Positions 1-22,901 of a stretch of DNA of 26,949 nucleotides are shown one piece after another. The notes below the pieces were generated by a model, which saw nothing but the letters and a program-made list of their open reading frames with translations, was not told the DNA's origin and made no database searches. Each line of letters starts with the position of its first letter. Within the stretch, counting starts at the first letter, position 1. Made by a program: the position numbers and the translations under genes. This DNA comes from a virus. Location: IMG/VR virus record IMGVR_UViG_3300030060_007932, positions 1-26,949 of that record; one strand, given 5' to 3'.

Positions 1-72
1 GAACGTCAGGGTCGTGCCATCTATGCCTCTGGCTACAAAAAGGAGAAAAAAGGTGGCAGGTCCAAAAAGTAA
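1..72 (+). CDS. C-terminal end of an upstream gene (partial)
   Basis: Frame 1 is open from the first base and stops at TAA 70-72, giving 23 residues that end in a lysine/glycine-rich tail (GYKKEKKGGRSKK). The 5' part lies outside the window, so the product cannot be named; a portal or other head protein would fit the position, but that is only a guess from context. It overlaps the next gene by 20 nt, because the ribosome binding site and GTG start at 53 lie inside this reading frame. The basic tail could be a disordered nucleic-acid-contacting end. Confidence 0.6.
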   Translation, partial: ERQGRAIYASGYKKEKKGGRSKK

Positions 73-397
73 AATAGTAACTGGTGCATTAGAAGGTCTA
101 TCAGATATATTTGAAGGAAAGAATGCAACTAATTTAAAATATAATGTGAAAGAAATTCCTGAAGGTGTTAGTGTTTTTGAAACTAAAAGCTGGGATTTTT
201 TGCCTGATGATATAAAAAATACTGTTTTTGACGAGAGTTCTTTTTCTGATTTAAAAGATTTTTTTGCAGGAAAAATAAATCTAGACGATGTTGAATACAA
301 CAACGAAAGTCTTGCTAAATTAATCTTTAATCTTTCCGAAGAGGGATATAACAAAGATCAAATTATGAATTTAATGGCTGTAGGAATCGCAAGATAA
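53..397 (+). CDS. Leader-tagged small protein A (unknown function)
   Basis: Predicted 114 residues. I chose GTG 53 rather than the upstream GTG at 14 because AGGAG at 41-45 sits 7 nt before it and because translation then begins MAGPKSKIVTGALEGLSD, the leader shared with the following genes. After the leader comes VKEIPEG (residues 32-38), which recurs in the next protein as VKEVPEG. AGKINLDD (72-79) and KDQIMNLM (101-108) resemble AGKIDLQD and KPEIMDYL in the gene at 2040, so parts of these proteins look paralogous. It is acidic, has no membrane segment and lacks the C-terminal GALxxL element seen in other members. The stop overlaps the next start (TAATG). Function unknown; I infer a virion-associated cargo protein from the shared leader and location. 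Confidence 0.75.
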   Translation: MAGPKSKIVTGALEGLSDIFEGKNATNLKYNVKEIPEGVSVFETKSWDFLPDDIKNTVFDESSFSDLKDFFAGKINLDDVEYNNESLAKLIFNLSEEGYNKDQIMNLMAVGIAR

Positions 398-918
398 TGT
401 CTGGTCCAAAAAGTAGAATAATAACTGGTGCATTAGGAAATTTAATTGATGCCTCTGATTTATTTAAAGCAAAAACTGAAGCTAATATTAAACAGCAAAG
501 TGAAGATGACATCAAATTTGTGAAAGAAGTTCCTGAAGGTGCACGCAAACTTAGCAAAAGAGAGCAAGATAAATTTTTTGGACTTAGTGACGAGTATCTT
601 GATGCAAGAGATGCAGGAGTTCGTTTTGAGGAGAAACCACCTGATTGGAGAGACATTGAGGAAAGCATTTCATCCTCTCAATTAAGTGATTTGGAGCAAG
701 TTATTGGAAAAAAATTGAACACATATGATATTAATTCAATTCTTGAAGACCCAACCATGCCATTATCAAAATTAAAACATGACAATTTGAAAGAAGAAGA
801 TCTGATGAAAGGTTCTTCTTTTATAGTTTGGGATCCAAAAAGCCAATCTCGTTATCTTGCAAATACAAGTGGAGCAAACACATATATAAGAATGTGGACA
901 GGTATTGATTATGATTAA
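397..918 (+). CDS. Leader-tagged protein B (unknown function)
   Basis: Encodes 173 residues starting MSGPKSRIITGALGNLID, the closest leader match to the previous gene, followed by VKEVPEG at 42-48, which parallels VKEIPEG in protein A. The middle is charged and helical in character (KLSKREQ, SQLSDLEQVIGKKL). The last 35 residues change style to aromatic and beta-rich (SSFIVWDP, YIRMWTGIDYD), which suggests a small separate domain I do not recognise. The start codon overlaps the upstream stop (TAATG) and a 16-nt gap follows. No catalytic motif or membrane segment is visible. Confidence 0.8.
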   Translation: MSGPKSRIITGALGNLIDASDLFKAKTEANIKQQSEDDIKFVKEVPEGARKLSKREQDKFFGLSDEYLDARDAGVRFEEKPPDWRDIEESISSSQLSDLEQVIGKKLNTYDINSILEDPTMPLSKLKHDNLKEEDLMKGSSFIVWDPKSQSRYLANTSGANTYIRMWTGIDYD

Positions 919-934
919 AAGGATTTTATATTAA

Positions 935-1849
935 ATGGCTGGTCCAAAAAGTAAAATAATTAATGTTGCAAAAGGTGCATTAGAAAATCTAGCTGATGAT
1001 ATCTTTAAGCCAACAGCTCCTCAAAATAAACAAGAAGTTTACATGGATGAATATTCTAACATATTTAATCCAGAGACGACTTCGAAAAAGATTTCTGAAT
1101 ATAGGCAAATGGAAGATGATCTTTTCGACATGGACAGTGACAGTGACGAGTATGCAGAAATGTACGAAGCCTATGAAAATAAATTGAAAGCAGAAGACCC
1201 TGCAGAAATAAGAAGACTAAGAGCTTCAGGGATAGGCTATACTTATATTTCTCCAGCAGATTTTAACCGCTGGGAAAAAAAGAGGGATTTTGGTCTTGAA
1301 AGTGCTCCTGTCGATCCATCTCGCAGGAAATTTATGAAAGAGGCAGGTGCTACTGGATTAGCAATAGGAGCACTTGGTAAATTGCCAATAGGTGATATTA
1401 TTGATGCTCCAAAAGCAGTAAAAATAGCTGATAAAGTTGCTCCAAAGATAGTAATTCCAAAAGGATTTAATTTTTCTTCTCTTAATTCATTTATGAACAA
1501 AATTGAAGAAGCAAAAGAACTTGCGATTGGAGAAGGAAGAGCTGATGATTTAGATGTGCTTGATGATCTTCAAATTGAAGAAATCATTGATGAAGTTGAT
1601 TATGATGAAATCACAGAGATGGTTTCTGAAATGAAATCAAAATTTCCAGATGCAACAAATCAAGAAATATACGAAGAGTTTTCTAAAATATCTGATGATG
1701 GTTTAGAAAATCTAGATGATATTTTTGATGAAGATGGTGGGTTTTTTTCTGCTATCGAAAAAATATCTCCTAAGAAAGTTGATCTAGAAGATCCAGTTGA
1801 TGTTGATGCTTTGCTTGATGAACTTGGTGAAAAGGCTTTTAGAAACTAA
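935..1849 (+). CDS. Leader-tagged acidic protein C with an internal twin-arginine-like motif
   Basis: Encodes 304 residues. It starts MAGPKSKIINVAKGALENLADDIF, where four extra residues split the usual leader. Residues 30-120 are acidic and helical. At 129-135 SRRKFMK matches the Tat consensus S-R-R-x-F-L-K, and it is followed by a weakly hydrophobic stretch (AGATGLAIGALGKLPIG). In a true Tat substrate this motif lies at the N-terminus, so here it is either coincidental, a membrane-association motif, or exposed only after cleavage. The C-terminal third is very acidic and contains GLENLDDIF (about 254-262), an echo of the leader's GALENLADDIF; the DNA shares 13 identical bases (980-992 and 1703-1715). 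AAAGGA lies about 12 nt before ATG. The stop overlaps the next gene (TAATG). No enzyme fold recognised. Confidence 0.8.
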   Translation: MAGPKSKIINVAKGALENLADDIFKPTAPQNKQEVYMDEYSNIFNPETTSKKISEYRQMEDDLFDMDSDSDEYAEMYEAYENKLKAEDPAEIRRLRASGIGYTYISPADFNRWEKKRDFGLESAPVDPSRRKFMKEAGATGLAIGALGKLPIGDIIDAPKAVKIADKVAPKIVIPKGFNFSSLNSFMNKIEEAKELAIGEGRADDLDVLDDLQIEEIIDEVDYDEITEMVSEMKSKFPDATNQEIYEEFSKISDDGLENLDDIFDEDGGFFSAIEKISPKKVDLEDPVDVDALLDELGEKAFRN

Positions 1850-2040
1850 TGGCTAGAGCTAAAATAAAAAAAGTTGCAGCTGCAGAGATAAGAGCTGCTA
1901 AGAAATTTCTTGAGCGTCGTGGTTTGAAAAGCACAGAGATCTCGCCACGCAAGTTTGCTCAAGCAGCAAAAGAACTTGACGAGTCGTTCAACGACACACT
2001 CGTTATCTTGGCTCGTGAGATTGAAGGAGGGCAAGGCTAG
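1849..2040 (+). CDS. Small basic helical protein
   Basis: Encodes 63 residues, rich in Lys/Arg/Ala, with the core FLERRGLKSTEISPRKFAQA followed by KELDESFNDTLVILAREI. Its first residues, MARAKIKK, only faintly resemble the neighbouring leaders and there is no GALxxL element, so I treat it as not being a family member. It is the only non-tagged gene among the eight of the array. From memory, similar short ISPxxFAxAAxEL proteins occur in marine phages, but without a known role. Junctions are TAATG upstream and TAGTG downstream. AAGGAGGG near its 3' end (about 2022-2029) is the ribosome binding site of the next gene. Confidence 0.75.
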   Translation: MARAKIKKVAAAEIRAAKKFLERRGLKSTEISPRKFAQAAKELDESFNDTLVILAREIEGGQG

Positions 2041-2738
2041 TGGCTGGCAAAGGTAAAATAGTAACTGGGGCATTAGAGGGGTTGACAGATGCAGCTTCCA
2101 AAGTTTTGCCAGAAAACATTTTTGATCTTCCAAGTTTTAAAGAAGCAGTAAGAGCTTTTAAAAGATCTGTGATGGGAGATACAGAGGATCTTTCTGTTGC
2201 AGAAAAGTTAGAAATTCCAGACGCTGAAGTTGATGCTGAAGATCTTGGTATTTATGGTTTTGAAAATGAAAAAGACCTATTTAGATCAAATCGAGATCCC
2301 TTTGATGATTGGGCAGCTGGAAAAATTGATCTGCAAGATTTTCAAAAAAAAGGAAGTTTTAGATCTAAAGAACATCCTGCTTATCCTTTGTCTCATGCAT
2401 TTCCGAGTATACCACCAACCTCAGGCACTGAGTTTTTAGGTGGTGCGAATTATCCTCTTGATGTTAGATCTTATGTTCTTAGAGATCTTGAAATGAATTA
2501 TGGTTTGTCAAAACCAGAGATAATGGATTATCTTAAAAAGAATGATTTGCTTGAAGCTACTGATCCGGAAGAATTCGATTTTAGTGAACAGCAAATGAAG
2601 GCATTAAAAGACGCATTTGCTTCTGACGATCCAGACAACCCTATCGTAAAAAGAGTCCGTGGTGCACTTGATGATCTTGTAGATGAAGATGACCTTGTTG
2701 AAGTTACGCCAGAGATGATCTACGGAAAGTCAAACTAG
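2040..2738 (+). CDS. Leader-tagged protein E (unknown function)
   Basis: Encodes 232 residues from a GTG start that overlaps the upstream TAG (TAGTG) and is preceded by a strong AAGGAGGG site. The leader is MAGKGKIVTGALEGLTD. Residues 93-100 (AGKIDLQD) and 158-165 (KPEIMDYL) match segments of protein A, separated here by about 57 residues instead of about 21, so A may be a shortened relative. A second element, GALDDLVDE, lies at 208-216, close to the C-terminus. A proline-rich middle (about 112-128) looks like a linker. No catalytic signature or membrane segment is visible. Confidence 0.8.
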   Translation: MAGKGKIVTGALEGLTDAASKVLPENIFDLPSFKEAVRAFKRSVMGDTEDLSVAEKLEIPDAEVDAEDLGIYGFENEKDLFRSNRDPFDDWAAGKIDLQDFQKKGSFRSKEHPAYPLSHAFPSIPPTSGTEFLGGANYPLDVRSYVLRDLEMNYGLSKPEIMDYLKKNDLLEATDPEEFDFSEQQMKALKDAFASDDPDNPIVKRVRGALDDLVDEDDLVEVTPEMIYGKSN

Positions 2739-3187
2739 TGGCTGGCAAAGGCAAAATAGTTCGTGGGGCATTGAAAGGCATAACAAATCTTGCTGACGTC
2801 AGAAAAGAAAAGGAACTGCAAAGTTTCCTCGATGACTTCAGGGAAAAAATTTCTCGCAGAATGGAAGATCAGCTTTTGAAAATTGCTGATCATAACTGGA
2901 ATTTTGAAGTTGGCGACAGAGTAATAACTGGAGACGAAGCTGCTAGAGCTGACAATCCAATGCCTTGGCAAATTGTAGGAAAAACTATTCGCAAAAAAGG
3001 TTTACTTCCAGAATCTAATCCGAGAGAGGGCAAGAACATATATGGAGAAGATGTTCCTTATTACTATGTTCAGCGTGGAGTTGAAGGTTCTGGTGATTTC
3101 GTACAGACATCTCTACCTGAATGGGCAATTACTCAAAAGTTTGGGATTGATAAAAAAGGTGCACTTGTAGATTTGGTAGAAGAATAA
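2738..3187 (+). CDS. Leader-tagged protein F with a small beta-rich domain
   Basis: Encodes 149 residues from a GTG start overlapping TAG (TAGTG). The leader reads MAGKGKIVRGALKGITN. A helical segment (22-50) is followed by a compact beta-type domain, with FEVGDRVITGDE (56-67), PWQIVGKTIRKKG (76-88), PYYYVQRG (107-114) and LPEWAI (126-131). This pattern of VGDRV, a WxIVG strand and a YYVQR strand suggests an SH3-like barrel, which is my inference from pattern only. The protein ends in GALVDLVEE, a terminal copy of the leader-like element. The last bases of the gene belong to a 20-nt border repeat (3173-3192) seen again at the next gene border. Confidence 0.8.
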   Translation: MAGKGKIVRGALKGITNLADVRKEKELQSFLDDFREKISRRMEDQLLKIADHNWNFEVGDRVITGDEAARADNPMPWQIVGKTIRKKGLLPESNPREGKNIYGEDVPYYYVQRGVEGSGDFVQTSLPEWAITQKFGIDKKGALVDLVEE

Positions 3188-3192
3188 TGGCA
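3173..3192 (+). repeat. Gene-border direct repeat, copy 1
   Basis: TTGGTAGAAGAATAATGGCA spans the last codons of one array gene, its TAA stop and the ATG of the next. The identical 20 bases recur at 3907-3926. Together the two copies bracket the ART-like gene. Looser similarity extends upstream through codons for Gly-Ala-Leu (GGTGCACTT here, GGTGCTCTC at the second copy). Confidence 0.85.
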
Positions 3193-3921
3193 ACTATTAA
3201 AAGTAAAGCAGCACAATCAGCACAAGGAGCATTGGAAGCTCTAGCAGATGCTTATAAAAAGACATTTGCTCCTGAGACCTATTACCATGCATCGGATTCT
3301 CCAGATATTGAAAAGTTTGATCCAGAAGCTAAACCATCAAGATTTGATGATTTTCCAACAGAAGTGATTAGAGCTACTGGCAACAGAGGTGCAACTTTTT
3401 TTACAGCAGATCCTAGTTTTACTGATAGAGTTATAGAAAATATCCAAACTGTTCGTTTCAATAGACAAGAAGCAGATGATTATTATGATAAAATTAGAGG
3501 TTCAACAATTTATCCAGTTAAAATAAAAACAAACGATCTATTTGACCCAGAAAATATAGAGCATCTTGAAAAGTTTAAGCAAAATTATAACAGAAACAAT
3601 GGCAGAGGTGCTTATGATATAAATTTTAGACAGACGCATAATTATGAGAACAAAACTATAAATGAAAATAATGAGCTTCTTCATCAATGGCAAGTTTTAG
3701 AGGATCCATATGTACACGATGCTTTAAAAGATGCAGGATTTAGAGGATATTTGGTAAAAGACGAGCCTGACACTGTAGCTCTTTTTAATCCAGACAAAGG
3801 CGATGTAAGATCTATTTTTGCAAAGTTCGATCCCAAAGAGTCTAAGTCAGGAAACATCCTAGCCTCTGTTCCAGCTGGAGCATTGGCCACTGGTGCTCTC
3901 GGCAACTTGGTAGAAGAATAA
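3187..3921 (+). CDS. Leader-tagged predicted ADP-ribosyltransferase (ART-PolyVal-like)
   Basis: Encodes 244 residues. The leader is diverged: MATIKSKAAQSAQGALEALAD. The body matches the pattern of ADP-ribosyltransferase-like domains in phage polyvalent proteins: YYHASDSPDIEKFDP (32-46, first strand with the conserved His34), GATFFTADPSFTDRV (68-82, the S/T-T strand), YPVKIKTNDLFDP (109-121), LKDAGFRGYLVKDEP (180-194, with possible catalytic Glu193) and a closing strand VALFNP then DVRSIFAKFDP (197-216). It would transfer ADP-ribose from NAD to a target, probably a host protein or nucleic acid; the target is unknown. The tail carries AGALATGALGNLVEE. The gene is bounded on both sides by the same 20-nt repeat. 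T4 Alt, a packaged ART, is the obvious functional analogy, but this is inferred. Family confidence is moderate to good; activity is unproven. Confidence 0.75.
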   Translation: MATIKSKAAQSAQGALEALADAYKKTFAPETYYHASDSPDIEKFDPEAKPSRFDDFPTEVIRATGNRGATFFTADPSFTDRVIENIQTVRFNRQEADDYYDKIRGSTIYPVKIKTNDLFDPENIEHLEKFKQNYNRNNGRGAYDINFRQTHNYENKTINENNELLHQWQVLEDPYVHDALKDAGFRGYLVKDEPDTVALFNPDKGDVRSIFAKFDPKESKSGNILASVPAGALATGALGNLVEE

Positions 3922-3926
3922 TGGCA
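3907..3926 (+). repeat. Gene-border direct repeat, copy 2
   Basis: Identical 20-base copy of the repeat at 3173-3192, again lying across a TAATG stop-start junction. The preceding CTGGTGCTCTCGG (3890-3902) recurs near the end of the next gene at 4579-4591, so the 3' end is repeated a third time without the following start codon. Confidence 0.85.
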
Positions 3927-4610
3927 GGTAAAAGCAAAATAATAAAAGGACTGTCAGATGTAGCCCAACGATGGTTCAATTCACTAGACGAAACTACAGG
4001 TCACAGATCTGAACTCCTTGCTGACTGGCCTGAATTTGTCGAAAAAGTTAAGAACCTTGACAAGGAAGCACCATTCTTATTTTCTCAATATGAGCCTAAA
4101 GTTTTAAGATCTGCTCTCGCTGAATCTGCAGAGGGTTTATCAGATTTAGCAGTTATGAATCCTGAAGACTTTCGAATGCTTGCTGCTAGGAATATTGAGA
4201 TGTGGATGGAAGGTGGCAAAAATTTTTCTCCTGACGATCCAATAACTCAAGAAATATACAGCAAAATTAATGAATATGCTGATATGTACGAAAAGGGCAT
4301 ACAGTTCGATGACATTCCTTATTTTCGAGTTGATAATCCACACAAGGGAGTTGCACAAGTTGTTGGTCACCAAGGTCGCCATCGGAAGAGAGCACAAGAA
4401 AAAATTGGCTCGGATCTTTCATTGGTAAGAATCCTTCGTCCAGAAAACTATAAAATAAAAGGCTCTGGTGATGTTTTACACACAGAGTTAAGTAGCCATC
4501 AATCGGCAGAGTCTGGTGGTGGCAAATCATACAAACCAATAGATGATGTTCTTAAATTTTTAAGCCTCGGTGGAACATCTGGTGCTCTCGGAAATTTAGT
4601 TGATGAATAG
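3921..4610 (+). CDS. Leader-tagged protein H with a GHQGRHR (ParB/Srx-like) domain
   Basis: Encodes 229 residues; ATG overlaps TAA. A short leader, MAGKSKIIKGLSD, lacks the GAL triplet. From about 78 on it follows a pattern I know from phage polyvalent and stand-alone proteins: MNPEDFRMLAAR (79-90), a helix with a Gly-x-x-Phe turn (KGIQFDDIPYFRV, 125-137), then VVGHQGRHRKRAQEKIG (147-163) and LVRILRP. Gly-x-x-Arg-x-x-(A)-Ala followed by a helix and a 'PV' strand is the ParB/sulfiredoxin phosphate-binding style; Gln replaces the usual Glu of HEGRHR. That fold assignment is tentative and the substrate is unknown. It ends in GALGNLVDE, almost the same as the end of the preceding ART gene. It is the last gene of the array; 51 nt without a gene follow. 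Confidence 0.75.
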   Translation: MAGKSKIIKGLSDVAQRWFNSLDETTGHRSELLADWPEFVEKVKNLDKEAPFLFSQYEPKVLRSALAESAEGLSDLAVMNPEDFRMLAARNIEMWMEGGKNFSPDDPITQEIYSKINEYADMYEKGIQFDDIPYFRVDNPHKGVAQVVGHQGRHRKRAQEKIGSDLSLVRILRPENYKIKGSGDVLHTELSSHQSAESGGGKSYKPIDDVLKFLSLGGTSGALGNLVDE

Positions 4611-5010: not shown

Positions 5011-5358
5011 ATGACTCATCATCATGTTCCCCAGCCACTTGGCTGGAAAGTATTGGTGAAACCATTCGAACCACCAGAAAAAACAGAAGGAGGCATTCTG
5101 CTTCCTGCCCAAGCTCAAGATGCTGAAGAGTATCTTACTGCACATGGCCACATCGTGGCTTTGGGTGAACTAGCTTATCGAGAAAGAGAAAGTGGCTTAC
5201 GATGGAAAGGCACTTGGCCAAAAGTCGAAGACCATGTCACATATGGAAAATATGCTGGACAAAAAGTCGTTGTCGATAGTGAAAAATTTCTGATTCTCAA
5301 TGATGACGAAATAACTTCAATCTTACCCAATGGTTGCGAGGTGAATAATCATGTCTGA
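5011..5358 (+). CDS. groES-like: GroES-like co-chaperonin
   Basis: Encodes 115 residues with the GroES (Cpn10) fold pattern: LGWKVLVKPFEPPEKTEGGI (10-29) containing the flexible mobile-loop region and the GGILLP motif that contacts GroEL, GHIVALG (46-52), and DHVTYGKYAGQKVVVDSEKF (74-93) followed by LILNDDEITSIL. It is longer than bacterial GroES (about 97 residues): the N-terminus is His-rich (MTHHHVPQP), and about 20 residues (ELAYRERESGLRWKGTWPKV) are inserted in the part that corresponds to the roof. Phage co-chaperonins such as T4 gp31 adapt host GroEL for folding the capsid protein; its place just before the scaffold and capsid genes fits that role. The last 8 nt overlap the scaffold start. 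Confidence 0.9.
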   Translation: MTHHHVPQPLGWKVLVKPFEPPEKTEGGILLPAQAQDAEEYLTAHGHIVALGELAYRERESGLRWKGTWPKVEDHVTYGKYAGQKVVVDSEKFLILNDDEITSILPNGCEVNNHV

Positions 5359-6256
5359 TCAAGAAGAAATTAAAAAAGTAGAAGAGGAGATTGCAAAAAC
5401 TCCTCTTGAGATAGAGTTGGTTGATGATAAAGAACCAGAAAAATCTGTTGAACAAGAAGAAAAACCAGAGCAAGAAGCAAAGGATGATCCCGAGGACAAA
5501 GAGTTTAGTCGTCGAGTCCAAAAAAGGATCAGTACTCTTGTCCAACAACGTAAACAAGCTGAAGCTGAAGCTGAACAGTCACGCTCGGAACTTGATTCGT
5601 TAAGATCTAGGCTTGATAAACTTGAGAAAGGTTCTGATCAACAAGCACAAAATCAATTTCAAGAGCGTTATAACGAAGCTCGCTCGAAATTGCAAATGGC
5701 TATTGAAGAAGGCAATACAGAAGAGCAAGTTGCCTATCAAGAGCAATTAGCTGATATGCGAGCAGCAATGCGTGTTCAAGAAATGCAAAGACAGCAGCAA
5801 GTTCAACAACAGGTATCTCCAACTGTTGGTCGTGCTGCACAGGTTCAATCTGAACCAACACCACAAAAAGCAATTGACTGGTGGCAGAAAAATCGTTGGT
5901 TTAATTCTGACGGCTATGAGAGAGAAACAGCTGCTGCAAGAGCAATTGATGTACAATTGGATCTTGAAGGATATGACAAATCTTCAGACGAATATTATGA
6001 TTTTTTGAATGACAGATTAAGAAAAGTCTTTCCCGAATTGATTCCAGAGAGTAAAGTAAAAAATAACTCTGCTCCAAGGACAAAAAGCAGATCACCAGTT
6101 GCACCAACTGCAGGTGGTCCAAGTCGCAGAGGAGGTCGTGTAAAGATGACCAAAGACCAGCTCGCTCTCGCTCGTGAGTTAGGAATAACTGACGAAAGGT
6201 CTTTAAAGGCTTATGAAAGTGAATTGAATGCACAAAAGGAGGCAAACAATGGTTGA
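5351..6256 (+). CDS. Capsid scaffolding protein
   Basis: Encodes 301 residues. It starts with a very acidic N-terminus (MSDQEEIKKVEEEIAKTPLE), then FSRRVQKRISTLVQQRKQAE (63-82) leading into a long Gln/Glu-rich coiled coil to about residue 152. Next come a small aromatic segment (PQKAIDWWQKNRWFN), a basic linker (SRRGGRVK) and a helical C-terminus ending KAYESELNAQKEA. Acidic start, coiled coil and basic helical end, placed immediately before head genes, are the hallmarks of phage scaffolds that are lost or removed when the capsid matures. The basic tail would contact the capsid protein. GAGGTG lies before the ATG. No prohead protease is visible in the window. Confidence 0.8.
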   Translation: MSDQEEIKKVEEEIAKTPLEIELVDDKEPEKSVEQEEKPEQEAKDDPEDKEFSRRVQKRISTLVQQRKQAEAEAEQSRSELDSLRSRLDKLEKGSDQQAQNQFQERYNEARSKLQMAIEEGNTEEQVAYQEQLADMRAAMRVQEMQRQQQVQQQVSPTVGRAAQVQSEPTPQKAIDWWQKNRWFNSDGYERETAAARAIDVQLDLEGYDKSSDEYYDFLNDRLRKVFPELIPESKVKNNSAPRTKSRSPVAPTAGGPSRRGGRVKMTKDQLALARELGITDERSLKAYESELNAQKEANNG

Positions 6257-7325: not shown

Positions 7326-8231
7326 ATGGCTATGAATAGAGCACAATTTGCTAAAATGCTCGAGCCAGGATTGAATACCCTCTTTGGTCTCGAGTATGAC
7401 CGATATCCAGAGGAGTATGCACCTGTGTTCGCAGCGAATACTTCAAGTAAAGCATATGAAGAAGACGTCCTTTTGGAGGGATTCGGAAATGCTCCAGTGA
7501 AAACAGAAGGTGCAGCCGTTTCTTATGATTCAGCTTCCCAACAGTGGACAGCTCGTTATCAGCATGAAACAGTTGCTCTTGCCTTCTCAATCACAGAAGA
7601 AGCAGAGGAAGATGGCCAGTATGGTTCAATCGCTGCTCGTTATACGAAAGCATTGGCTCGCTCAATGGCTTCCACAAAGGAAATCAAAGCAGCCAACATT
7701 TTCAATAACGCAACGTCTGGAACTTATGCTGGCGGTGATGGTGTCGCACTTTTAAGCACCTCTCATCCAACTCGTAATGGCAACCAGTCAAACACTCTTG
7801 CGACTGCTGCTGACCTTTCAGAGACTTCTCTTGAGTCTATTTTGATTCAGATTGCTGACATGAAAGACGATCGTGGGTTGCGTGTTGCTGCCCAAGGAAC
7901 TCGTCTTATCATTCCAACAGCATATGTTTTCACTGCTGAAAGACTTCTCGAGTCTCAACTTCGTACTGCGACTGCTGATAATGACATAAATGCTATCCGC
8001 TCTGGTGGTTATCTGCCACAAGGGTATCATGTCATGCGTCGTATTTCAGACTCAGATCGTTGGTTTGTACAAACTGATGTTCCTGATGGTTTGAAGTACT
8101 TCCAACGCTCTCCTCTTAAAAAGGGCATGGAAGGCGATTTTGAAACTGGTAATGTTCGCTACAAAGTTCGTGAGCGTTATTCCTTCGGTTTCACCGATTG
8201 GCGTGGTCTTTTCGGCTCTGAAGGTGCGTAA
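7326..8231 (+). CDS. Major capsid protein (Mu gpT-like, HK97 fold)
   Basis: Encodes 301 residues. Starts MAMNRAQFAKMLEPGLNTLF, with YEEDVLLEGFGNAPVKTEGA and an acidic EEAEEDGQYG segment leading into the long spine-helix-like ARYTKALARSMASTKEIKAA. The STSHP motif, LIIPTAYVFTAERLLESQLR, and the end PDGLKYFQRSPLKKGMEGDF followed by RYKVRERYSFGFTDWRGLFG are features of gpT-like major head subunits. It assembles the icosahedral shell. A strong GGAGGGT site (7311-7317) precedes ATG, and an intrinsic terminator follows two codons' distance after the stop, as expected for the most abundant product. No obvious N-terminal delta domain, which agrees with a separate scaffold gene. Confidence 0.9.
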   Translation: MAMNRAQFAKMLEPGLNTLFGLEYDRYPEEYAPVFAANTSSKAYEEDVLLEGFGNAPVKTEGAAVSYDSASQQWTARYQHETVALAFSITEEAEEDGQYGSIAARYTKALARSMASTKEIKAANIFNNATSGTYAGGDGVALLSTSHPTRNGNQSNTLATAADLSETSLESILIQIADMKDDRGLRVAAQGTRLIIPTAYVFTAERLLESQLRTATADNDINAIRSGGYLPQGYHVMRRISDSDRWFVQTDVPDGLKYFQRSPLKKGMEGDFETGNVRYKVRERYSFGFTDWRGLFGSEGA

Positions 8232-8270: not shown

Positions 8271-8759
8271 ATGGCAGAAGCAAAACAAGTTACAAAAAAT
8301 ATTGGTGCACTAAGTAATATTGGTGCAAACAAACCTGCTGAGTTAAGATCTTATGATCCTCCAAATGCAGATAAAATAGCTTATTTTTTAGCAGATGCTT
8401 TCGGAGATGGTGGCAGAGATTCTGTCAGACAAGCTAAAAAATTTACAGAACCTGCACAGGTTATTTCTGATTACGGAACATTACCTTTTTATTTTACAAA
8501 ATTTGCACCATTGGCAGCTGCTTTTGATAGTGCTAGAGGTGTTGTTTATGATGATCCTTATGAGGTTGCTCTTGGTGCACTTGGAATAGCTAGACCATTA
8601 AAATCAATGGCACCAACAATGTCTGATGCTTCTGAAAGAGCTTTGAGTTATGCATTTGGAGCTGGTGGTACTGGAATAGCTGCTCAAGATGCTGCCGAAA
8701 GTTTTGGAGTTTTAGATTTAATTAAAAGTATTTTTACAAAAGCTGAGAATGAAAATTAA
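8271..8759 (+). CDS. Cargo-type protein with a leader-like N-terminus, starting right after the terminator
   Basis: Encodes 162 residues. ATG 8271 is the first base after the terminator T-run, and no Shine-Dalgarno sequence precedes it; the upstream bases are the hairpin itself. The N-terminus, MAEAKQVTKNIGALSNIGAN, resembles the GALxxL leaders of the 53-4610 array. The middle (ADAFGDGGRDSVRQAKKF, LPFYFTKFAPLAAAFDSARG, VALGALGIARPL) alternates polar helices with Gly/Ala-rich hydrophobic stretches of a kind I associate with phage polyvalent proteins, so membrane or capsid-interior association is possible. It looks like an insertion between two structural genes. Expression presumably depends on read-through or on translation from a leaderless-like start. 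Function unknown. Confidence 0.7.
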   Translation: MAEAKQVTKNIGALSNIGANKPAELRSYDPPNADKIAYFLADAFGDGGRDSVRQAKKFTEPAQVISDYGTLPFYFTKFAPLAAAFDSARGVVYDDPYEVALGALGIARPLKSMAPTMSDASERALSYAFGAGGTGIAAQDAAESFGVLDLIKSIFTKAENEN

Positions 8760-19906: not shown

Positions 19907-21180
19907 TGGCAGCTCTAACAAATTTAATTGAAAGAACAGAAAGTATTGTTCCCGATAAAAACGAAAAAGAGCAAGAGCAAGAGCTTGTTCCTGTTTATCA
20001 AGTTGAGTCTTTTAAACCAGATTTAGAGTCTGGACAACTTCAAAAACTTTATGGCACAAGTGCGATGCCGATGTTTGAGTTTGCCAGACGTGTTCAGTCT
20101 GGTGAAGCAACTTACAATCCTTCTAATCAATTTGATAGGGAAGCTGCAGAGACAATCAGTGCATTGTCAGATCAAGAATTAATTGACCAAGGTTTACAAC
20201 CTGATATTATCAAAGATATTTTACTTCCTACTGCTAGTTTTGCTGGAGGTACAGTTATATCTAAGGCAGGACAGCTCGCATCAAAAGCAGGTGCAGCTCC
20301 TTTTGCTGAACAGCTTGTTCCAGCGATTGAATCTTTTCTGCCAAGTTCTATAACTGGTGCACCACCAACTTATTCTGGACTTACTGTAGCTAGTGGTATT
20401 AATCCTACGATTGCAAAAGATTTTGGACTAGCAGCAAATCAGTCTGCAATCTCCAAAACAGCTTTTAAACAATTACAAGCAGCAAATCCTAATTTTGTTG
20501 GAACACAAGTTGTTGGCAATCCAAATCTTATGAAAGTAAGCACACCTTCACTAGATCTTGTGAATGCTTCTGCAAAATCAGGTAGTGTTGTCACTCCTGT
20601 AGCTTCTCAAGCTGATACATCTATATTTGGTGGTGAACTAACTCAAGGATATAAATCCGGACTCGCTCAAGTAGGAACAAGTTTTGCTTTAGACCTTGGT
20701 ATAAATCTTCTTTCTGGAATGAAGCCAAAACAAGCAGTAAAACAATCTGCAATTACAACTGCGGGAACAGCGATCGGAACTTATTTTGGTGGTCCAATTG
20801 GTGGATTCGTTGGTGGAACAGTAGCAAAAGTTGTTAGTGGTGGCTCTGTTGTTTGCACTGAGCTACACGAACAAGGTGAAATTTCAGACAGTGAATACAG
20901 AACAACAAATTATTATAACGCAGTAATTTTAACACCAACTCATATGAAAGGATATCATTTTTGGGGTGTTTCTGTTGCTAAAAAAATGAAAAAAGGTAAT
21001 AATGTTAAATTTTGGAAAGCTGTTTACAAAAAGTGGAACAAGCATGCAAATTATAAATTAGGAAAAGGCAAGTTTAGTATTTCTGGTTTTGTTGTTGCTA
21101 AATCTCTCGAAACAGCAAGCCTTTTAATTGGCAAAATTTACGAGGCAACTTTAGAGAAAAGGATATTTGCAAATGGCTGA
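19906..21180 (+). CDS. Putative ejection/internal virion protein with a glycine zipper
   Basis: Encodes 424 residues. A polar N-terminus rich in Glu (EKEQEQELVPVYQVESF) is followed by helical parts with Ala/Gly-rich amphipathic stretches. At 286-313 (AGTAIGTYFGGPIGG FVGGTVAKVVSG) a GxxxG glycine zipper resembles membrane-inserting segments of phage ejection proteins. The C-terminal 100 residues form a conserved domain with Cys317 (CTELHEQGEISDSEYRTTNY), GYHFWGVSVAKKM and a Lys-rich stretch that is common in marine phages. I infer delivery of DNA across the envelope. Start overlaps the previous stop (TAATG); the next start overlaps its stop by 8 nt. Confidence 0.7.
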   Translation: MAALTNLIERTESIVPDKNEKEQEQELVPVYQVESFKPDLESGQLQKLYGTSAMPMFEFARRVQSGEATYNPSNQFDREAAETISALSDQELIDQGLQPDIIKDILLPTASFAGGTVISKAGQLASKAGAAPFAEQLVPAIESFLPSSITGAPPTYSGLTVASGINPTIAKDFGLAANQSAISKTAFKQLQAANPNFVGTQVVGNPNLMKVSTPSLDLVNASAKSGSVVTPVASQADTSIFGGELTQGYKSGLAQVGTSFALDLGINLLSGMKPKQAVKQSAITTAGTAIGTYFGGPIGGFVGGTVAKVVSGGSVVCTELHEQGEISDSEYRTTNYYNAVILTPTHMKGYHFWGVSVAKKMKKGNNVKFWKAVYKKWNKHANYKLGKGKFSISGFVVAKSLETASLLIGKIYEATLEKRIFANG

Positions 21181-21454
21181 ACAAATGATGGAACAGCAAA
21201 GAAGTTTAAATGATGAAATGGGTTCTGATGCATCAATGATGATGATGCAACCAGATGAAGAGGTTCGTATCATTTTGCTTTCTCGTCTTGAGTCTATGAC
21301 TCCAGAAGAATTAAAAACTTTAGATCGAGCTATTGATGGAGCTTCAGCTAGAGTTCTTTTAAAGTTGTTGCCAGAGCTACAGGATCTTATTGAAACATCT
21401 ATGAGTCGAAAAGCTGCTGGTGGTCAGCAGGGTGGTGCATTGGCAGGAATGTAA
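21173..21454 (+). CDS. Small Met/Gln-rich helical protein
   Basis: Encodes 93 residues from ATG 21173, chosen over a TTG at 21167 because it gives the standard ATGGCTGA overlap with the previous stop. The N-terminus has clusters of Met and Gln (EQMMEQQRS, ASMMMMQPDEE), then a leucine-rich helix (VRIILLSRLESMTPEELKTL, ARVLLKLLPELQDLIETSMS) and a Gly/Gln tail. It looks like a small oligomer-forming partner of the ejection proteins around it; function is not known. Confidence 0.7.
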   Translation: MAEQMMEQQRSLNDEMGSDASMMMMQPDEEVRIILLSRLESMTPEELKTLDRAIDGASARVLLKLLPELQDLIETSMSRKAAGGQQGGALAGM

Positions 21455-21891
21455 TGGAAATAAGACAAGCATCAATATTTGATTTTTCTCACATTTGTGC
21501 TCATCTTGTCCGGATGCACAAAGAGTCTGATGTTAAATTATCAGAGATAGATGCTGATAAATTTTCATCGGCTGTTCTTAAAACAATTAATCAAGGCATT
21601 GTTCTTGTTGCAATTGAAGATGGTCGAATGATAGGATCGATTGGTGGTATTCAGTCTTCTGAGTGGTGGTCGGTTGAACCACTTCTAGGTGATATTTGGT
21701 TTTATGTTGAGCCAGAAAGTCGAGCAACTAGAGCTGCAATAAATCTTGTAAAAGAATTTATGTCTGTTGGACAAGGTATGAATATTAAGCTCGGCCATAT
21801 TTATGGCAGTGATTTAGATCGTAAAGATAATTTTTTTGAAAGGCTTGGTCTTAAAAAAGTTGGGACTAGCTATTTTTCGGAGGCGAGTTGA
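21454..21891 (+). CDS. GNAT-family N-acetyltransferase
   Basis: Encodes 145 residues. MEIRQASIFDFSHICAHLVR is the usual beta1-alpha1 start of GNAT proteins; GIVLVAIEDGRMIGSIGGIQ gives strands beta2-beta3; DIWFYVEPESRATRAAINLV is the beta4 and pyrophosphate-binding loop with R-A-T-R-A-A in place of the usual Q/R-x-x-G-x-G/A; LDRKDNFFERLGLKKVGTSY gives the acetyl-CoA-side end (F-x-x-x-G-F type). It transfers an acetyl group from acetyl-CoA to an unknown substrate. Its position inside the ejection-protein block is typical of marine phages, perhaps to modify a virion or host protein, but that is inference. Confidence 0.8.
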   Translation: MEIRQASIFDFSHICAHLVRMHKESDVKLSEIDADKFSSAVLKTINQGIVLVAIEDGRMIGSIGGIQSSEWWSVEPLLGDIWFYVEPESRATRAAINLVKEFMSVGQGMNIKLGHIYGSDLDRKDNFFERLGLKKVGTSYFSEAS

Positions 21892-22901
21892 TGGGTGGAT
21901 TATGCACTACAAATGTTCAAACACTACCTGATCCAAAGGAAGTTTTAAAAGATACAGAGATTCCTGAATGGGTATCTGAAGGTGGTCAAAAACTTTTTCA
22001 ACAAGCTGCTGAACTTGCTGGAGGTGAATTTCCTGTTTTTGAAGGAGACAGGATTTCTACATATGAAGACATAGCTGATCCAGGAGGAATTTCTAAATTT
22101 ACAGCTCGTGAACAGGAAGGTTTGCAACTTCTTGAAGATCGTGGTGATGTTTATCAACCTTTTATAGATAGAGCTAGTGAAATATCAACTGATATTGGTT
22201 CGCAAAGAATTGATACTGGCCAATTTGATTATTCTGCTTTTGGCCAAGAGGCTTTAGATAAATATCTTCCAATGTTTACTAGTGCTGTTGATCCAGCTTT
22301 GCAGGATGTTTCCGAAACATTTGCCAAAAGACAAAGAGATCTTAATCTTGCAGCTGGTAAGACTGGTGCTTTTGGTGATCGCAGAGGATTAGAGTCTGCA
22401 GAGCTGACAAGAGGTGAAGCTCGGGAGCGTGGAAAATTGCTTTCTGAAGCTGGTCGGCAAGGTCTTGAATTTTCATCTGGTCAATTTGAAAGAGATCGTG
22501 CAGCAGCAGAAAGATTATTTCAAATGAACCAAGCTGCTCGCCAGTCAGATTTTGACCTTAACCAAGCTAGCCGGAGAATGGAGCTTGAATCAGTTGCACA
22601 GCTCGCTCCTCAAGTTCAAGGTCTTGTTCAGCAGGAAGCACAAGGTTTAATTGGTGCTGGTGAAGCTGAAAGACAGCTTGATCAACAAGCTCTTGAAATG
22701 GCTTATAGAGACTATGTTGAGCAAAGAGAATTTCCATTCACATCTTTAAATTTTGCCTTGGGTGCTCTTAAAGGTCTTCCATTTGAAACTCGTGAATTTA
22801 CAATGCAACGTGGTGGCGAGTTTGTTCAGAGTCCTAGTGTATATGGTCAAACAATGGGTGGGCTTGGTGCTTTAGCATCAGCTTACAAGCTGTTAACTTA
22901 G
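21891..22901 (+). CDS. Putative internal virion/ejection protein
   Basis: Encodes 336 residues from ATG 21891 (CGGAGG site at 21878-21883; TGATG overlap). I chose this over a TTG three bases upstream. The protein is mostly helical and rich in Gln, Arg and Ala: PEWVSEGGQKLFQQAAELAG, EQEGLQLLEDRGDVYQPFID, RQRDLNLAAGKTGAFGDRRG, RDRAAAERLFQMNQAARQSD, MAYRDYVEQREFPFTSLNFA, then LGALKGLPFETREFT. The YVEQREFPF-x-x-LNFALGALKGLP segment is a motif I associate with marine phage internal proteins. It probably packs with the two large proteins that follow to form the ejected core. Confidence 0.72.
   Translation: MGGLCTTNVQTLPDPKEVLKDTEIPEWVSEGGQKLFQQAAELAGGEFPVFEGDRISTYEDIADPGGISKFTAREQEGLQLLEDRGDVYQPFIDRASEISTDIGSQRIDTGQFDYSAFGQEALDKYLPMFTSAVDPALQDVSETFAKRQRDLNLAAGKTGAFGDRRGLESAELTRGEARERGKLLSEAGRQGLEFSSGQFERDRAAAERLFQMNQAARQSDFDLNQASRRMELESVAQLAPQVQGLVQQEAQGLIGAGEAERQLDQQALEMAYRDYVEQREFPFTSLNFALGALKGLPFETREFTMQRGGEFVQSPSVYGQTMGGLGALASAYKLLT

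Follow-up and report, generated by a model that had tools for sequence, protein, structure and literature searches.

A short motif at either end of unrelated proteins beside the head genes of a marine phage group, a candidate signal for packaging in the virion

Many otherwise different proteins encoded between the portal and GroES genes of a phage clade carry the short motif GALxx[LIV] at the N-terminus, at the C-terminus or at both ends, and this terminal tag is probably a cargo signal by which effectors are docked in the prohead for ejection with the DNA. The analysis started from a window of 26,949 bases, which is the whole stretch of DNA analysed and constitutes one IMG/VR virus record. 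An earlier note had compared an array of genes at its left end (53-4610) with the internal proteins of phage T4, as a set of effectors packed in the capsid. This remains the best explanation found, with the reservations that the motif may stand at either terminus and that the match to T4 is a functional analogy only.

The window encodes a GroES, a scaffold-like protein, a gpT-like capsid protein, tail genes and a DNA-ejection protein. Indeed, a GroES-like co-chaperonin (Cpn10) (5011..5358, + strand; PF00166, E=2e-16) forms the right border of the array locus and is followed by an acidic coiled protein (5351..6256, +), whose position suggests a scaffold role, and by the gpT-like major capsid protein (7326..8231, +), which served as probe for related loci. 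The left border is the portal gene, which lies beyond the left edge of the window and is visible in orthologous contigs. The array block was said to lie next to the head genes, and this neighbourhood is kept in all relatives. No separate prohead protease family was recognised among the head genes scanned, several of which gave no informative family match. The gene directly after the capsid gene (8271..8759, +) opens with an N-terminal copy of the motif (NIGALSNIGAN), the form GALxNIGAN also opening a gene of 193 aa in locus L179, and its product may be another head-interior protein. In the block of ejection proteins, a small protein (21167..21454, +) ends in GGALAGM (GALSGM in its L250 ortholog), and the DNA ejection protein (phrog_4287; 21888..22901, +) has GAL at residues 291 and 326 of 336 (numbered from the ATG at 21891), both copies being also present in the L250 ortholog. 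An acetyltransferase (phrog_1249, E=7.5e-20) is encoded within the same block at 21454-21891. Furthermore, contigs of this phage group are contained in bacterial genome assemblies (L253, from Rhodobacteraceae bacterium SB2; L252; L251), and the Rhodobacteraceae record L253 hints at the host.

The eight consecutive open reading frames that the earlier note had described are all present, mostly with 1-nt overlaps of stop and start, and a shared N-terminal leader was indeed found on seven of them (53, 397, 935, 2040, 2738, 3187 and 3921), the gene at 1849 having none. In brief, these genes, all on the + strand, encode: (i) a protein of 114 aa (53..397) with the leader MAGPKSKIVTGALEGLSD (GAL codons at 83-91) and a body of no assigned family, the start being the GTG at 53, while an in-frame extension back to 14 runs into the end of an upstream basic-protein gene; (ii) a protein of 173 aa (397..918) with the leader MSGPKSRIITGALGNLID (GAL at 427-435), whose body, also of no assigned family, has orthologs in L088/L179 and L155; (iii) a protein of 304 aa (935..1849) with the leader MAGPKSKIINVAKGALENLADD (GAL at 974-982), an internal Tat-like SRRKFMK and then a second GALGKL (1367-1375); (iv) an untagged basic protein of 63 aa (1849..2040), conserved at the same locus in many related phages; (v) a protein of 232 aa with a GTG start (2040..2738), the leader MAGKGKIVTGALEGLTD (GAL at 2067-2075) and GALDDLVDE at 2661-2687; (vi) a protein of 149 aa with a GTG start (2738..3187), the leader MAGKGKIVRGALKGITN (GAL at 2765-2773) and a C-terminal GALVDLVEE (3158-3184); (vii) an ADP-ribosyltransferase-like protein of 244 aa (3187..3921) with an N-terminal GALEALAD (3226-3249) and a C-terminal GALGNLVEE (3892-3918); and (viii) a protein of 229 aa (3921..4610) with a putative ParB/sulfiredoxin-fold body and a GH[QED]GRH motif, whose N-terminal leader is degenerate and without GAL (MAGKSKIIKGLSD) and whose C-terminal end is GALGNLVDE (4581-4607). 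The seven tagged genes thus hold 12 copies of GAL. The untagged 63-aa protein is retained amid the variable array across a wide range of phages.

The first 25 residues of the proteins from 53, 397, 935, 2040 and 2738 gave pair scores of 33-65, as compared with shuffled leaders (mean 16.4, sd 3.7, 99.9th percentile 33) and with other gene pairs of the window (at most 29); the scores are weaker for 3187 (15-46) and weaker again for 3921 (15-37). The leader had been described as conserved at the DNA level, which is real and is a matter of degree, 37-42 of the first 54 nt being shared in the best pairs versus about 25-34 in comparisons with 1849. The bodies differ as had been noted, no pair of them reaching z>3, except that those of 935 and 2040 were later joined through relatives in one distant family chain, and some array bodies may be very remotely linked. 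The signal is nevertheless not confined to the N-terminus as first described, because the same core is found at C-terminal ends: GALxxL[VI][DE] is the extreme C-terminus of the 2738, 3187 and 3921 proteins and sits 16 residues before the C-terminal end of the 2040 protein. This C-terminal recurrence of the leader core is new here and was absent from the earlier note. The acidic residues that follow the C-terminal GAL were also considered as a mere reflection of the purine-rich ribosome-binding sequence of the next overlapping gene. This was rejected because about 200 nt separate the LVDE end of 3921 from the next called gene and because such a sequence leaves GALxxL unexplained, although it may contribute to the acidic residues.

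About 250 related viral loci were retrieved for comparison, arrays being probed with the 3921 protein, the leader DNA pattern, GroES and the 63-aa gene. Outside the window, gene starts were assigned by a simple script, and several of the loci overlap as fragments of a single contig, which was dealt with by clustering in the motif statistics. These included close arrays (L086/L092, L087/L095, L088, L091, L094 and L099) and about 150 wider loci. The body sets of the close arrays overlap yet are reshuffled, L088 having an additional protein of 639 aa with the tag at both ends and L094 having two further bodies. In distant phages, the same locus carries very different leaders, each common within one genome (MAKITKIIKGVLPKDLGALGNLKE, MANPVKGAISQLGE, MAGKGKFGKFLEGKAHGALGELTD, MVKITPGALLNLLK and SAVDALGNKIGALP), and a GA[LI] core is present in all of them. 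The nearest named relatives (capsid 84%) have the same locus, with the leader MANPVKGAI[SG]QLGE on several bodies and with C-terminal GAL tags; most of their locus products are annotated as hypothetical, and the searched part of the text of the paper on these phages does not mention the shared protein ends. No match was obtained by tblastn of 3187 and 3921 against the phage collection, and the C-terminal tag DNA pattern, searched against all viral contigs, recovered one contig only, which was already known.

The tripeptide content of the locus was analysed on 239 non-redundant protein clusters (35% identity) from the portal-GroES interval of the clade whose capsid proteins are about 77-94% similar to that of the window. 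GAL is present in 124 of the 239 clusters versus 27.7 expected from composition (z=18) and is the most over-represented tripeptide, the second being ALP, which overlaps GAL (7.8); for GALxx[LIV], 110 were observed versus 5.9 expected. Downstream structural genes of the same contigs (198 clusters) show no enrichment in GAL (5 versus 4.6 expected). The density of GAL per 1000 aa is 8.1 in the first 30 residues, 8.2 in the last 20 and 1.6 in the interior, where 60 of the 190 copies lie. A blind search with reduced-alphabet four-position patterns, run separately on N-ends and C-ends, returned GA[LIVM]..[LIVM] as the top motif at both ends (N-terminal, 40 versus 2.4; C-terminal, 37 versus 1.9; of 177). 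A second N-terminal motif, [FWY][LIVM]..[LIVM]..[KR] (e.g. FLKSFSDK), was also observed on different bodies (20 versus 3.0 expected; examples in L149:4958, L120:7388, L101:4198 and L099:5989).

The earlier note had proposed to check whether the leader is restricted to one protein family, which would have refuted its proposal. When this was done on the relatives, the tag was found on 29 of 60 body superfamilies versus 6.7 expected (sd 2.1), the superfamilies having been counted with the termini removed and with profile merging, which guards against residual homology between the 35%-identity clusters; the count is conservative, since single-linkage merging of bodies chains large families.

Among the closest contigs the leader tracks orthology. 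In L099, leader similarity is 48.8 among unrelated bodies versus 27.9 with the leaders of true orthologs in other phages, so that the leader there tracks the genome more than the body. This result and the DNA-level likeness of neighbouring leaders would both be accounted for if the shared leader were a mere recombination or duplication module, new bodies being caught behind an existing gene start and the ends having no targeting role. Such an origin is unlikely to be the whole explanation of the tag, as this core is also present at C-termini and in leaders that are otherwise wholly different between phages. Moreover, the 190 copies of GAL are written in 50 different codon spellings and, in orthologs, GAL columns are more conserved than their flanks (0.80 versus 0.66, p=3.5e-4), which together point to selection on the peptide. 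Recombination between leaders is probably how the tag spreads, yet neither its conservation nor its C-terminal copies are explained in this way.

The tag is restricted to one clade. All 32 complete loci with a capsid at 77% or above hold at least one tagged gene, and 84 of their 185 genes are tagged, about half of the locus genes having no recognisable tag; rows without a capsid gene in the fragment (capsid value 0) were left out of this comparison, which includes some overlapping contig pieces. In the sister clade (capsid 57-67%), with GroES and portal in the same places, the tag is absent, GAL being found in 4 of 47 clusters and 3 of 26 genes passing the tag test. This restriction is what would be expected if the tag were recognised by a virion component specific to the clade. 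It also bears on the idea that the tag serves folding or recruits a chaperonin, suggested by the adjacent phage GroES gene, which stands at the locus border throughout the group: as GroES occupies this place in the tagless sister clade too, a chaperonin signal is hardly credible. Pairs of different small proteins with another common leader, such as MGDISLRGxGIExRxxFAKGG or MAGLGIxxRGxGxARI, were observed in the tagless sister clade (L045:734 and 1667; L049:517 and 1435; L068:2315 and 3159), and this leader may be another tag with an equivalent role.

The array proteins of the window itself gave nothing significant in Pfam, PHROG and PADLOC searches. A Pfam scan of 115 representatives bearing GAL, GAI or GSL identified ART-PolyVal (6 members), PBECR5 (2), ParB, GNAT, methyltransferase, LysM, Hint and Tat-like signals, to which PHROG searches on tagged representatives added endolysin, transglycosylase, DNA methyltransferase and ParB-like proteins. 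Judging from these domain matches, the tagged bodies are a predicted repertoire of 'polyvalent' early effectors. The 3187 protein of the window was not matched by ART-PolyVal (PF18760), while its orthologs (E=1e-5 and 4e-5) and a related protein (E=2e-6) were, all below the gathering score; residues Y33, H34, R208 and S209 are invariant in the alignment, and 3187 is a predicted ART-PolyVal member by way of its orthologs. The structural model of the ART, with a pLDDT of 68 and a best Foldseek match at E>1, is of low quality and does not settle the fold. For 3921, the structural model has a pLDDT of 85.6, falling below 50 in the C-terminal tag (residues 218-229), as expected for a disordered tail. 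Its leading Foldseek matches, namely Srx, PadC, Osa and KorB, all belong to the ParB/sulfiredoxin superfamily and are weak (best E=0.07, probability 0.89); GH[QED]GRH is conserved in the 3921 family. In another family of array proteins, an internal Tat-like SRRxFhK precedes a stretch rich in Gly and Ala, often with GAL (935-1849 in the window, at about 1321-1375; L086:5501; L099:4797 and 5375; L107:6740; L217:3731), and Pfam TAT_signal matches in two relatives of this family. Three array proteins (L099:5989-6462, L094:378-911 and L088:8059-8529) have repeated beta-strand-like sequence and two of them end in F; outer-membrane barrels often end in F.

The nature of the bodies bears on what the tag docks. 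It could dock minor structural or assembly proteins, such as a portal collar or an inner capsid lining, which would be kept in the virion or act as assembly aids without being injected; the position of the locus beside the head genes, the disordered tagged tail and the presence of the tag on the post-capsid gene 8271 and on the small ejection-block protein would all suit such a role. Structural proteins are, however, expected to be conserved, whereas the bodies vary strongly from one close relative to the next and count effector-type enzymes among them, which makes a purely structural role rather improbable. Outside the clade, a homolog of a tagged body adjoins a gene annotated as 'internal virion protein' in Pelagibacter phage HTVC028P, and body homologs lie within giant proteins of about 2850 aa beside lysozyme/endolysin genes in phages Carin1 and Ab9. 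The occurrence of bodies as domains of giant proteins, together with the tagged proteins of 640-1360 aa at the locus of relatives, could suggest that the tags are linker relics of an ancestral large polyvalent polyprotein that was split into separate genes. This origin is very doubtful, because the tag is missing from both outside homologs read at full length (HTVC028P and MW202675) and because relics would not remain conserved.

If the tag is indeed a cargo signal, the portal-GroES locus would be a row of cassettes for early-infection effectors, including a putative ADP-ribosyltransferase, a ParB/Srx-like nuclease or nucleotidase, a PBECR nuclease, acetyl- and methyltransferases, lysozymes and unassigned bodies. 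These proteins would be recruited into the virion via a short linear docking tag in the N- or C-terminal tail, with the core G-A-L-x-x-[LIV] and often an acidic residue next to it. During prohead assembly, the tag would bind a partner exclusive to this phage clade, e.g. the scaffold, the portal or the inner face of the capsid, and the effectors would sit in the head and exit with the DNA into the host. We infer packaging, the binding partner, ejection and the role of each body; no virion proteomics for any member of the clade was found in the literature searched. In a broader version of this proposal, which we put forward tentatively as a possibility, G-[AS]-L-x-x-[LIV] would be a general cargo code of the clade, similar to that of encapsulins and usable at either end; a head component peculiar to the clade would read it, and any protein that gains the tag would be loaded.

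Several known systems resemble this arrangement in part. In T4, a short leader, the N-terminal capsid targeting sequence, is common to several unrelated proteins (IPI-III and Alt) (PMC3012670, PMC9026906); as in T4, the genes go with late/head functions and an ADP-ribosyltransferase body recurs. Unlike in T4, the motif of the window, GALxx[LIV], occurs at either end and on about 29 body superfamilies across the clade, and packaging is here a prediction. For packaging, the leader of T4 IPIII is sufficient, as are the first 30 aa of P1 DarB (PMC9024508). The Dar effectors of P1 are packed in the head and addressed by a terminal peptide (PMC9024508), a likeness by analogy; DarB carries a signal of its own on a single large chain, whereas here one motif is common to many different and mostly small proteins. 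Iyer et al. 2017 (PMC5512222) predicted that the polyvalent proteins of phages and conjugative elements are packaged and injected. As far as the searched text of that paper goes, they share with the present locus ART, ParB-like, PBECR, GNAT, methyltransferase and lysozyme domains encoded beside virion genes, differ from it in that the domains are fused in one polypeptide instead of being mostly separate genes with a common tag, and are not described as having a shared tag. There is no sign of a fusion of several domains in the bodies of the window (114-304 aa), larger proteins being found only in relatives. In form, the encapsulin cargo peptide (PMC7925596) comes closest: like the apparently disordered GAL motif, it is a short, flexible peptide at a terminus, and its widely conserved G-S-L anchors cargo within a protein shell; here the motif is GAL rather than GSL, is N- or C-terminal and would act in a DNA-filled phage head, and the resemblance is one of form, with no homology claimed.

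Which phage proteins enter the host along with the DNA is, to our knowledge, unanswered for nearly all uncultured phages. Should the tag prove to encode packaging, injected proteins could be found by sequence search in a marine group related to Roseobacter phages, and dozens of candidate early effectors, including some of unknown fold, would be named; this idea could be tested in two cultured phages. The set of tagged proteins further suggests that polyvalent effectors can be separate proteins bearing the same tag rather than one fused chain and, if the general cargo code holds true, the proteins injected by a large group of marine phages could be predicted from a single motif.
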